DNA from: Mongoliitalea daihaiensis
Lineage (GTDB): Bacteria > Bacteroidota > Bacteroidia > Cytophagales > Cyclobacteriaceae
Length of the DNA stretch: 64,000 nt
Direction of reading: 5' to 3'
NCBI RefSeq assembly: GCF_021596945.1
Contig: NZ_CP063779.1
Location: 1,401,592-1,465,591, forward strand
Notes under the pieces: generated by a model
Databases searched by the model: none
The model's input: the letters and a program-made list of their open reading frames with translations, nothing else
What the model was told of the DNA's origin: nothing
Part shown: in pieces, positions 29,200-36,669 of the stretch
How the letters are laid out: each line of letters starts with the position of its first letter
Numbering within the stretch: position 1 is the first letter of the stretch
Program-made: the position numbers and the translations under genes

Positions 29200-30724
<1,525 letters not shown>

Positions 30725-30872
30725 GGAAGGGTTTCAGGTTTTGTTTAAAAGAGATTGAGTTCGTTCATACTTCACTTTTGAATCCGATGGGGTTCATAAG
30801 TTCTTTGACATGTTGAGTAGAGAATGCAATAGTAATAAGAGAGTTTATAGAGTTTGCAAAAGGGCTCTATAG
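30725..30872 (+). other. Short 16S-23S internal spacer without tRNA
   Basis: About 148 bases with no tRNA-like cloverleaf. It holds the distal half of the 16S processing stem, a second boxA-like GTTCTTTGA (30800-30808), and AGAGAATGCAA (30819-30829), which pairs perfectly with TTGCATTCTCT at 33768-33778 to enclose the 23S rRNA. Confidence 0.75.
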
Positions 30873-33758
<2,886 letters not shown>

Positions 33759-33924
33759 CGAATGCTGTTGCATTCTCTGCGAAACATGATCAACCTAGAG
33801 GCTAGAGTCGAGAACCAAGAGTCAAGACCGGGTTACTCCAGAGAACAAAGATATTACAGATTGAAGACAGAAATACAGGATGGGTTAGTCTCATGTCTAG
33901 TGTCTTATGTCTCACATCTAAAGA
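33759..33924 (+). other. 23S-5S spacer carrying degenerate repeat words
   Basis: The first ~20 bases are the 3' side of the 23S processing stem. The rest includes degenerate words (GAGTCGAGAACCAAGAGTCAAG and GTCTCATGTCTAGTGTCTTATGTCTC, quoted in parts of the spacer) like intergenic low-complexity repeats elsewhere. No gene. Confidence 0.5.
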
Positions 33925-34035
33925 TTAGGCGGCCTAGCGCAGGGGTCCCACCTCTTCCCATCCCGAACAGAGAAGTTAAGCCCTGCAGCGCCGATGGTAC
34001 TGGGGTTACACCCGGGAGAGTAGGTCGCCGCCACA
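33925..34035 (+). rRNA. rrf: 5S ribosomal RNA
   Basis: About 110 bases. Helix I pairs GGCGGC (33928-33933) with GCCGCC (34027-34032). The core CCCATCCCGAACAGAGAAGTTAAG-like loop is present (read in two parts: CCCATCCCGAACAG and AGAAGTTAAGCCC). Ends are estimated. The last 30 bases recur, altered, in two downstream repeats. Confidence 0.93.
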
Positions 34036-34449
34036 TTATTGAACCCTCAGATGAAAATCTGGGGGTTTTGTGTTTGTAGGCTGTTAGGATAGATTTTTAG
34101 GGATAGCAACTGATATATGCTGACGCGATATAAATGGATATATGCCTCCTACCTTTGGTAGGCAGGATCGGCGATATAAAGGGGCAGGAAGTAGAGGAGA
34201 TAGTTTTTTGTGTATTACTTTACATCGTAGCGTGGCGTTCTTTGCGCTTTATCGTTGCGGCCCTTGCGTGAAACTTAGCGGCTTTGCGCCTTTGCGAGAC
34301 ACCCAAAGTTACGGTTTACTGATGTTAGAAAATTTTGAATGATGAACTGGTGGTTCACTGTTCAGTCCCCCTTTATCCTTTCACCTTTACCCTTTTTCCT
34401 ACATCACTCAATCAACCATTTACTCAATTTACCAATCAACTTGAGAAAT
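34004..34449 (+). repeat. Tandem repeat unit 1, beginning in the 5S 3' end
   Basis: 446 bases starting GGTTACACCCGGGAGAG inside the 5S gene, then the terminator, an AT-rich segment with CGATATAAATGGATATATGC, a TTTGCG-word region (TTTGCGCTTTATCGTTGCG) and CACTCAATCAACC words. Small frames inside repeat across copies but have no coding features. Confidence 0.85.
34042..34070 (+). terminator. rRNA operon terminator (first copy)
   Basis: 11-bp stem AACCCTCAGAT / ATCTGGGGGTT with a GAAA loop and one G-T pair, then T-rich tail. This is copied twice downstream. Confidence 0.85.
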
Positions 34450-34915
34450 GGTTACACCCGGGAGAGGAGAGCCTGTCCCGAGGATCGGGATCGCCTCCAC
34501 ATTATTGAACCCTCAGATGAAAATCTGGGGGTTTTGTGTTTGTAGGCTGTTAGGATAGATTTTTAGGGATAGCAACTGATATATGCTTGCGCGATATAAA
34601 TGGATATATGCCTCCTACCTTTGGTAGACAGGATCGGCGATATAAAAGGGCAGGAAGTAGAGGAGATTGTTTTTTGTGTATTACTTTACATCGTAGCGTA
34701 GCGTTCTTTGCGCTTTATCGTTGCGTCCGTTGCGTGAAACTTCGCGGCTTGGCGCCTTTGCGAGACACCCAAAGTTACGGTTTACTGATGTTAGGAAATG
34801 TCGAATGATGAACTGGTGGTTCACCGTTCACTCCCCCTTTATCCTTTCACCTTTACCCTTTCTCCTAAATCACTCAATCAACCATTTACTCAATTTACCA
34901 ATAAACTTAACAAAT
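34450..34915 (+). repeat. Tandem repeat unit 2 with 5S tail fragment
   Basis: 466 bases, roughly 95% like unit 1 by eye. The 5S tail TAGGTCG is replaced by GAGAGCCTGTCCCGAGGATC plus GGGATCG, which contains a 6-bp hairpin TCCCGA-GGA-TCGGGA. The rest follows unit 1. Confidence 0.85.
34508..34534 (+). terminator. Duplicated rRNA terminator (second copy)
   Basis: Same 11-bp stem AACCCTCAGAT / ATCTGGGGGTT as the first copy, unchanged in sequence. Confidence 0.75.
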
Positions 34916-35335
34916 GGTTACACCCGGGAGAGGAGAGCCTGTCCCGAGGATCGGGATCGCTGCCACATTATTGAACCCTCAGGAAAAATCTTGGGGGTTT
35001 TGTGTTTGTAGGCTGTTAGGATAGATTTTTAGGGATAGCAACTGATATATGCTGACGCGATATAAATGGATATATGCTGACGCGATATATTCGGGGGCAG
35101 CAAACAGAGGAGATAGTTTTTTGTGTATTACTTTACATGGTAGCGTGGCGTTCTTTGCGCTTTATCGTTGCGTCCGTTGCGTGAAACTATGCGGCTTGGC
35201 GCCTTTGCGAGACACCCAAAGTTACGGTTTTTCTGATGTTAGAAAATTTTGAATGATGAACTGGTGGTTCACTGTTCACTCTTCCTTTATCCTTTCACCT
35301 TTACCCTTTCTCCTAAATCACTTAATTAACCAATC
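34916..35335 (+). repeat. Tandem repeat unit 3, partly rearranged
   Basis: About 420 bases. It shares the altered 5S tail with unit 2, then a terminator with two changes, then a segment where CGATATAAATGGATATATGC is partly duplicated and the CCTACCTTTGGTAGG hairpin is missing. It fades into CACCAAT repeats before serS. Confidence 0.8.
34974..35001 (+). terminator. Duplicated rRNA terminator (third copy)
   Basis: Stem AACCCTCAG / TTGGGGGTT with two G-T pairs, more diverged loop AAAAATC. It would still fold. Confidence 0.55.
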
Positions 35336-35354
35336 ACCAATCACCAATCACTCA
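35328..35354. repeat. CACCAAT simple tandem repeat
   Basis: Three to four copies of the 7-base word CACCAAT directly upstream of the serS promoter. Confidence 0.7.
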
Positions 35355-35361
35355 CTTTCTG

Positions 35362-35369
35362 TATATTTG
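35362..35369 (+). promoter_or_regulatory. -7 promoter element of serS
   Basis: TATATTTG matches TAnnTTTG exactly, 29 bases before the serS ATG. Confidence 0.55.
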
Positions 35370-35397
35370 CATACTTTAAAAAAAACAGCAAAGAAAT

Positions 35398-36669
35398 ATG
35401 TTACTCGTCAATACGATTAGAGAAAATTTTGAATTGGTGCTGGAAGGTTTGCATAAGCGTAATTTGGCTAATGCAGAGGCTACCTTGCATGAGGTGTTGG
35501 AACTGGATAAGAAAAGGAAAGAAACCCAAACAGAAAGAGACAGTCTTCAAGCCGAATCTAACGCAATCTCTAAACAAATCGGTCTATTGATGAGAGAGGG
35601 CAAAAAAGAAGAAGCAGAGCAAATCAAAACCCGTACAGGAGAGATCAAAGAACAGATTAAAGCACTGGAGGAATCCTATAATACCTATGAAGCGGATTTG
35701 AGGCAATTGCTTTATACCTTGCCTAATGTGCCGCATCACTCTGTACCAAAGGGTAAATCAGCTGACGATAATGAAATCGTACTGACTAACGGAGAAATTC
35801 CTGTCTTGCCAGCAAGTAAAAAACCGCATTGGGACCTTATTAAGGAATATGACATCATTGACTTTGACTTAGGAGTGAAAATTACCGGTGCTGGATTCCC
35901 TGTTTACAAAGGACGAGGGGCCCGACTGCAGCGTGCATTGATTAATTTCTTCCTAGATGAAGCCATGAAGGCAGGCTACATAGAGGTTCAGCCACCTATT
36001 TTAGTGAATGAAGATTCTGGTTATGGTACAGGACAACTTCCAGATAAGGAAGGACAGATGTACGAGGCTACTATGGATAAGTTGTACCTGATTCCTACTG
36101 CGGAAGTTCCAATTACCAATATCTACCGAGATGTAATCTTGGATGAGCGTGCATTCCCTATCAAAAATGTTGGCTATACACCTTGTTTTCGAAGAGAAGC
36201 TGGTAGCTGGGGAGCTCATGTAAGAGGTCTCAACAGACTGCATCAATTTGATAAAGTCGAGATTGTACAGATTGTTCATCCGGACAACTCTTACCAAGCA
36301 CTGGAAGAAATGAGTGCCTATGTTCAGAGCTTATTACAAAAACTGGAATTACCATACCGAGTCCTTAGACTATGTGGTGGAGATATGGGCTTTACTTCTG
36401 CATTGACGTATGATATGGAAGTATTCTCAGCGGCTCAGGAGCGTTGGTTGGAAGTGAGTTCTGTCAGTAACTTCGAAAACTACCAAGCCAATCGCTTGAA
36501 ATTGCGCTACAAAGGAGAAGATAAAAAAACGCAATTGGCGCATACCCTGAATGGAAGTGCCTTGGCATTACCTAGAATAGTGGCATCCATTCTAGAAAAT
36601 AACCAAACGGAAGATGGTATCCGAATGCCACAAGTATTGGTTCCTTACTTGGGATTTGAGTGGATTTAA
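35398..36669 (+). CDS. serS: Seryl-tRNA synthetase
   Basis: 423 residues, full length. N-terminal tRNA-binding coiled coil (about 30-105), then the class II catalytic core: motif 1 near GYIEVQPPILV, motif 2 FRREAGSWGAHVRGL (about 267-281) and motif 3 ALPRIVASILENNQ (about 394-407). It charges tRNA-Ser. It has its own promoter and lies downstream of the rRNA repeats; the adjacency to rRNA has no known functional need. A terminator follows. Confidence 0.97.
   Translation: MLLVNTIRENFELVLEGLHKRNLANAEATLHEVLELDKKRKETQTERDSLQAESNAISKQIGLLMREGKKEEAEQIKTRTGEIKEQIKALEESYNTYEADLRQLLYTLPNVPHHSVPKGKSADDNEIVLTNGEIPVLPASKKPHWDLIKEYDIIDFDLGVKITGAGFPVYKGRGARLQRALINFFLDEAMKAGYIEVQPPILVNEDSGYGTGQLPDKEGQMYEATMDKLYLIPTAEVPITNIYRDVILDERAFPIKNVGYTPCFRREAGSWGAHVRGLNRLHQFDKVEIVQIVHPDNSYQALEEMSAYVQSLLQKLELPYRVLRLCGGDMGFTSALTYDMEVFSAAQERWLEVSSVSNFENYQANRLKLRYKGEDKKTQLAHTLNGSALALPRIVASILENNQTEDGIRMPQVLVPYLGFEWI

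Follow-up and report, generated by a model that had tools for sequence, protein, structure and literature searches.

The window, by which we mean the whole stretch of 64,000 nucleotides that was analysed, comes from Mongoliitalea daihaiensis, a member of the family Cyclobacteriaceae within the order Cytophagales. The genome is a single contig of 4.82 Mb with four 5S genes and rRNA operons, one of which ends in the window. Between the 5S rRNA gene of this operon and the next gene lies a tandem array with the following features (positions are those of the window):

33925 to 34036, plus strand: genuine 5S rRNA gene (Rfam RF00001, 89.1 bits), whose last ~33 bases are the start of unit 1
34041 to 34068, plus strand: intrinsic terminator 1, a 12-pair stem and then a T tail (terminator scan, fold)
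34086 to 34150, plus strand: dispersed ~70-nt repeat of unit 1, found at 24 or more further places in the genome
34450 to 34499, plus strand: first extra 5S tail, made of GGTTACACCCGGGAGAG, a hairpin insert and TCGCCTCCA
34476 to 34490, plus strand: hairpin TCCCGA-GGA-TCGGGA inserted in the first extra tail
34507 to 34534, plus strand: intrinsic terminator 2 (terminator scan, fold)
34573 to 34644, plus strand: dispersed ~70-nt repeat of unit 2 (genome repeat search)
34659 to 35188, plus strand: tract of 530 bases that recurs without a difference in the array of the 123-kb rRNA operon, there on the minus strand (exact match)
34916 to 34965, plus strand: second extra 5S tail, made of GGTTACACCCGGGAGAG, a hairpin insert and TCGCTGCCA
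34942 to 34956, plus strand: hairpin TCCCGA-GGA-TCGGGA inserted in the second extra tail
34973 to 35000, plus strand: intrinsic terminator 3 (terminator scan, fold)
35025 to 35096, plus strand: dispersed ~70-nt repeat of unit 3 (genome repeat search)
35398 to 36669, plus strand: next gene, named serS (seryl-tRNA synthetase) in the first-pass annotation and 98% identical in Mongoliitalea lutea, which marks the two as near relatives

As the first-pass annotation had reported, exact copies of GGTTACACCCGGGAGAG stand at 34004, 34450 and 34916, at spacings of 446 and 466 bases; these three are the only ones in the whole window, and chance does not account for them, the expected number from 100 shuffles being 0. 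A block of 121 bases from 34025 in copy 1 has a 98% match in copy 2 and a 94% match in copy 3. The units are indeed copies of the 5S end and its terminator, with exact tails and a terminator stem after each. The description as three cassettes was correct for the three tails and terminators and needs one refinement: the start of unit 1 belongs to the intact 5S gene, and the array is therefore one genuine gene end followed by two extra tails, not a set of three free-standing cassettes. The hairpin TCCCGA-GGA-TCGGGA is common to units 2 and 3 and absent from unit 1, as had been noticed. In the extra tails, 24 nt stand where the 5S gene has TAGG, and this insert directly precedes the final nine bases of 5S; these differ from the gene at one position in each extra copy (TCGCCTCCA in the first, TCGCTGCCA in the second).

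Six terminator-like sites were found in 33800-35500 against 1.8 expected, namely the three main terminators and weaker ones at 34229, 34695 and 35142. In the same interval the scan for sigma-70 promoters, which does not cover the promoters of this phylum, gave none against 3.2 expected. The octamer TATATTTG at 35362-35369, directly 3' of the array and 5' of serS, resembles the -7 element of Bacteroidota promoters, and the array of the 123-kb operon has a similar end, CACTCACTTTC-GTATATTTG, ahead of its own next gene. The five internal frames of the array (66-96 aa) had been judged unconvincing as genes, and none of them has a Pfam match at E 0.1; as far as tested, no protein is made from the 5S array. 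The 16S-23S gap of the window operon (30723-30876) has only 154 bases and holds no tRNA gene; the other three operons likewise gave no internal tRNA gene, and one tRNA-Arg lies outside the 123-kb operon.

Comparison of the 3' flanks of the four operons revealed two extra tails in the window, two at 123 kb, one at 2.41 Mb and none at 2.02 Mb, with three, three, two and one terminators, respectively. The 2.02-Mb operon carries three copies of a related ~250-bp repeat, with no extra tail and no extra terminator; the extra tails are thus dispensable there, and the variation in copy number, with terminators down to one at this operon, indicates that the extra copies are not essential. A genome-wide search for GGTTACACCCGGGAGAG with up to two mismatches gave nine matches, which are the four genuine 5S genes and five extra tails; all five stand behind a 5S gene, and none was found elsewhere at this threshold. 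The repeat pieces of the arrays are far less confined, with at least 35 matches in the genome, of which seven lie in the four rRNA arrays and at least 28 outside them (24 of the ~70-nt piece and four of other pieces); these counts are lower bounds, 40 of the 83 first-look candidates having been scored.

The arrays of the window and of the 123-kb operon are related unit by unit. In unit 3 of the window the first two blocks are identical to those of the third unit at 123 kb (60/60 and 111/111) and the last block differs at 11 of 234 positions, while in unit 2 it is the last block that is identical to that of the second unit at 123 kb (276/276) and the first two that differ (10/60 and 19/111). 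The longest exact tract common to both operons has 530 bases, against 91 for the longest self match in the window. This identity suggests that the junction of units 2 and 3 was shaped by exchange between operons, and the earlier view that recombination had shaped the array is borne out to that extent. The proposal of two-step copying, in which an altered copy served as the source for the second step, is not supported if taken as a series of local events, since the tract that spans the junction (34659-35188) is identical to another operon, a pattern for which a purely local two-step copy is insufficient, and since the altered tail predates the species and is shared with other genera.

Indeed, the altered tail was found at the same 5S position in G001, a second Mongoliitalea genome, and in four further genera, which argues that it was not made in this species. 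The first-pass annotation had advised looking for the unit after each rRNA operon and in related genomes, and an altered tail is present at three of the four operons and in five other genomes. In G001 the altered tail lies on two contigs; on one of them the downstream gene looks, by eye, like that of the 123-kb operon, and one contig has a short spacer as in the compact form described below. The pattern of an interrupted 5S tail matched five of 148 family genomes, our own included (G000, G001, G019, G248 and G475), with none in the reversed control; the remaining 143 are without a match to this specific pattern, a point against the reading preferred below, though draft assemblies often end at rRNA genes. 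A sixth genome, G016, has different 5S letters and carries TCCCGATAGCCATCGGGA in the same position of its two extra tails. G475, of another genus, is represented by one 5.04-Mb contig, about a whole genome, and has six, two and one extra tails at three operons, in a compact unit of ~112 bp composed of the tail, the hairpin TCCCGGGAAnCGGGA, the last 5S bases and a terminator. G248 (L278:1-370) and G019 (L152) hold fuller 5S copies in which loops are replaced by other palindromes (TCCGCC..GGCGGA, TACGCC..), with a terminator after each copy, and G002 (L157) has a degenerate 5S copy that was recognised by eye only. A stricter pattern run on 390 genomes of the order matched only G000 and G001; G016, G019 and G475 were outside that draw. 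In a survey for other tail copies, which kept rows with at least 60 downstream bases (nine shorter rows were dropped, and further loci below the 5S score cut gave no row), five of 23 rows from 15 genomes were positive (one in G016, three in G475, one in G248); since G475 and G248 had entered because of their known copies, the figure among genomes drawn as relatives is one in 13 (G016, in one of its two rows).

A stem follows the tail end in all 28 ends examined in our own and four other genomes, and the 44 bases after these ends fold at -17.1 to -20.7 kcal/mol, with stems that differ in sequence. Among five distinct stems of one type, compared within the genus, each of the 60 cells is paired, and at two pairs both sides have changed; this covariation is suggestive only, as 32 of 500 shuffles of these five distinct sequences do as well. 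The stems thus stay paired while their sequences change, which is compatible with a role in termination. The loop of the hairpin in the tails varies as well, being GGA in the window and GGA, GTA, CTGG or GAA among genomes.

The layout of this array recalls the tRNA-linked repeats (TLRs) of Escherichia coli. TLRs have been known since 1978, with a function that was long unknown, and number 22, spread over ten loci in operons of tRNA and rRNA genes; their last 18-19 bases are the end of the upstream RNA gene, three of them, located between T1 and T2 in rRNA operons, give rise to the small RNAs RrA, RrB and RrF, and BLAST homologues of RrB occur in at least 31 species, all Enterobacteriales (PMC8144298). 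As in the window, the 5S-type TLRs (RrA, RrB and RrF, of rrnA, rrnB and rrnD) re-copy the 3' end of the 5S gene behind that gene and are positioned between two terminators, and in rrnB a palindrome stands just 5' of the copied tail. The array also lies where TLRs are expected, directly behind an rRNA gene of the same operon. It differs in that the E. coli copies keep 18-19 unbroken bases (18 in the 5S type), whereas those of the window have 17, then the insert, then nine with one change each, and in that E. coli has one copy per operon, this genome up to two and G475 six. Homology was rejected, since alignments with the rrnB and tyrT stretches of E. coli scored 17-21 against null maxima of 24-38, with nothing above the shuffled scores. 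The array is therefore TLR-like in its layout, and its membership in that class is not established, given the interrupted tail and the lack of homology to these two stretches. The tyrT/tyrV repeats with rttR are a further parallel, being tandem units that end in the tail of the upstream stable RNA; a hairpin core is common to the tyrT repeats and the T1-T2 stretch of rrnB (score 40, null 26), just as TCCCGA..TCGGGA is found in both the 5S arrays and the tRNA arrays of the present genome. The tRNA-type TLRs of E. coli nevertheless have a different hairpin and belong to a different phylum, and the tRNA arrays found here often carry a GIY-YIG ORF. We know of no account of how the E. coli TLRs originated. 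REP/REPIN sequences and the small dispersed repeats of Nostoc are likewise small hairpin elements of bacteria, with short palindromes at several unrelated places as in this genome, and membership in them is not claimed. A literature search for repeats of the tRNA-linked type in Bacteroidota found none, a weak result as most subscription papers were outside its scope; as far as found, a layout like that of the TLRs, known from E. coli, is not described in this bacterial group.

The same hairpin occurs well beyond the 5S tails. The motif TGTCCCGA-n-TCGGGA has 38 sites in the genome against one in the reversed control: two arrays of degenerate tRNA-Asp copies account for 20, the 5S tails for five, a 244-bp array for four and a tRNA-Ala copy for one, and the other eight stand singly, several of these in sequence rich in repeats. 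The 244-bp array (L202:1718-2930, at 1.274 Mb of the genome) consists of five tandem repeats that contain TGTCCCGAGACCTCGGGA and a GCG-rich piece similar to a part of the window units. At L201:3333-8918 (~3225332-3230917 of the genome), two intact tRNA-Asp genes are flanked by arrays of tRNA-Asp copies, six of 78 bp before them and ~14 of 346 bp behind, and all 20 copies have the TCCCGA..TCGGGA hairpin in place of the anticodon arm. In the 346-bp units, a GIY-YIG ORF (Pfam PF01541, 2.9e-19; 14 matches without stops) lies between the tRNA terminator and the next copy. Of the 21 GIY-YIG matches in the genome, 19 are behind tRNA-Asp, -Ala, -Val, -Asn or -Thr. The tRNA-Ala, -Val, -Asn and -Thr loci are at 1.91, 4.69, 1.98 and 3.48 Mb (L225, L226, L227 and L231); the first three have the order tRNA, terminator, GIY-YIG ORF and degenerate tRNA copy, the ORF of tRNA-Val holds a stop and that of tRNA-Thr is a fragment. 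At the Asp, Ala, Val and Asn loci the degenerate copy beyond the GIY-YIG ORF bears a palindrome in the anticodon arm, a position assigned by eye. These tRNA arrays with GIY-YIG ORFs are a more surprising lead than the 5S array itself.

Across the order, tRNA copies bearing the hairpin were matched in 33 of 380 genomes, our own included, and in none of the control, with a pattern that requires the hairpin between the D loop and the variable loop and so cannot show a preference for the anticodon arm. Of 30 loci kept (L232-L261), 28 have a named tRNA nearby (the exceptions are L233 and L244), and in 25 no other tRNA among 70 matches better than the local one, two of these loci being doubtful (in L246 the hairpin copy itself was called a tRNA, and in L252 the best local match is tRNA-Ile); at L243, L247 and L250 the tRNA of another locus scored higher. 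GIY-YIG similarity accompanies 19 of the 30 loci, in one case only as a fragment. The similarity between the window tail and the tRNA-Asp copy is limited to 20 columns (score 25, null maximum 21). A search by tblastn with four tRNA-linked GIY-YIG proteins found nothing in the window and nothing at the further 5S loci searched; on this result and the five frames free of Pfam matches, a GIY-YIG remnant inside the 5S units was rejected.

These observations bear on several readings of the array. An artefact of assembly would be a natural suspicion, since rRNA ends are prone to misassembly, and the first-pass annotation had named it as a danger; it is, however, extremely improbable, as copy numbers and flanks differ at the four operons of a single-contig genome, the tail units on contigs of the sister genome have flanks of their own, and the 5.04-Mb contig of another genus has such arrays too. 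Selection for complete termination, in which the copies are kept to stop rRNA transcription fully before the next promoter, had been offered as the purpose of three terminators in a row, and it is a somewhat unlikely explanation. It is favoured by the strong paired stem in every copy examined despite sequence change and by the precedent of E. coli rrnB, where T1 was measured to stop 87% and T2 100% of the transcripts (PMC8144298). The need for three is weakened by terminator numbers of three, three, two and one across the operons, and the terminator makes up only ~30 of the ~450 bases of each window unit.

A regulatory RNA is the least attractive of the biological alternatives and is quite unlikely. 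According to it, read-through of terminator 1 would yield short hairpin RNAs like RrA, RrB and RrF, an idea consistent with the position between two terminators, with the hairpin ahead of the 5S tail and with the GGA loop in the window. However, the loop differs among genomes, the units have pieces in common with dispersed repeats, and the genome gave no match to CsrA in a search that was positive in three of 14 control genomes, so that titration of CsrA in the manner of RrB was rejected. It is also rather unlikely that the array is the scar of a homing element, in which a GIY-YIG nuclease would have driven tandem copying, the hairpin would mark copies that can no longer be cut, and the nuclease would since have been lost from the 5S arrays. 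The tRNA loci speak for such a history, through the GIY-YIG matches behind tRNA genes, their place between tRNA and palindrome-bearing copy, and their frequency at loci of the tRNA type in the order. So does the phage protein SegB, a GIY-YIG homing endonuclease whose gene lies beside tRNA genes and which amplifies tRNA segments as tandem copies of tRNA and nuclease gene (PMC13096335). This parallel concerns the tRNA arrays; it does not extend to the 5S array, where no such gene was found.

We therefore consider it likely, on balance, that the locus is a TLR-like, 5S-linked array that arose by local re-copying, hairpin insertion and recombination, and whose copies are putative back-up terminators; the presence of the same kind of hairpin in degenerate tRNA copies adjoining their parent tRNA is counted in its favour. 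In this sequence of events, the 5S 3' end and its terminator would have been re-copied just downstream of the gene, and a hairpin element, GCCTG-TCCCGAnnnTCGGGA, would have entered the non-functional copy immediately ahead of the final 5S bases, giving the altered tail that may be the form now spreading. Unequal recombination between the array's own repeats would have produced tandem copies, which may then have been exchanged between rRNA operons, and other repeats would have stretched the units from ~112 to ~450 bp in this species. Transcripts that leak past terminator 1 would meet further terminators before serS, and the extra copies, judging from their predicted stems, probably act as back-up terminators.

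The TLR-like array may also be one face of something larger. By analogy, we raise the tentative possibility that stable-RNA genes are targets in this order of a wider class of selfish repeats, of which the 5S array would be one manifestation: tRNA and 5S genes would perhaps be re-copied with the same class of palindrome placed at a fixed structural spot, the anticodon arm in tRNAs and the position directly before the 3' strand in 5S. The GIY-YIG genes of many tRNA arrays could conceivably drive this copying in the manner of SegB, an idea that rests on the tRNA arrays and on the phage protein as its model, and the TLRs of E. coli might then be a separately evolved counterpart.

Long identical tracts can be common to the ends of rRNA operons, which matters for the treatment of rRNA flanks and for the mapping of transcription stops. 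The present array extends the layout known from E. coli to a new bacterial group, in which it also occurs in tandem and is connected with tRNA arrays. A group whose 5S and tRNA genes show a similar layout without being related to the TLRs, and in which many tRNA arrays carry candidate nuclease genes, would make the origin of such repeats testable, and if the lead from the tRNA arrays proves true, the interest of the 5S array would rise with it.
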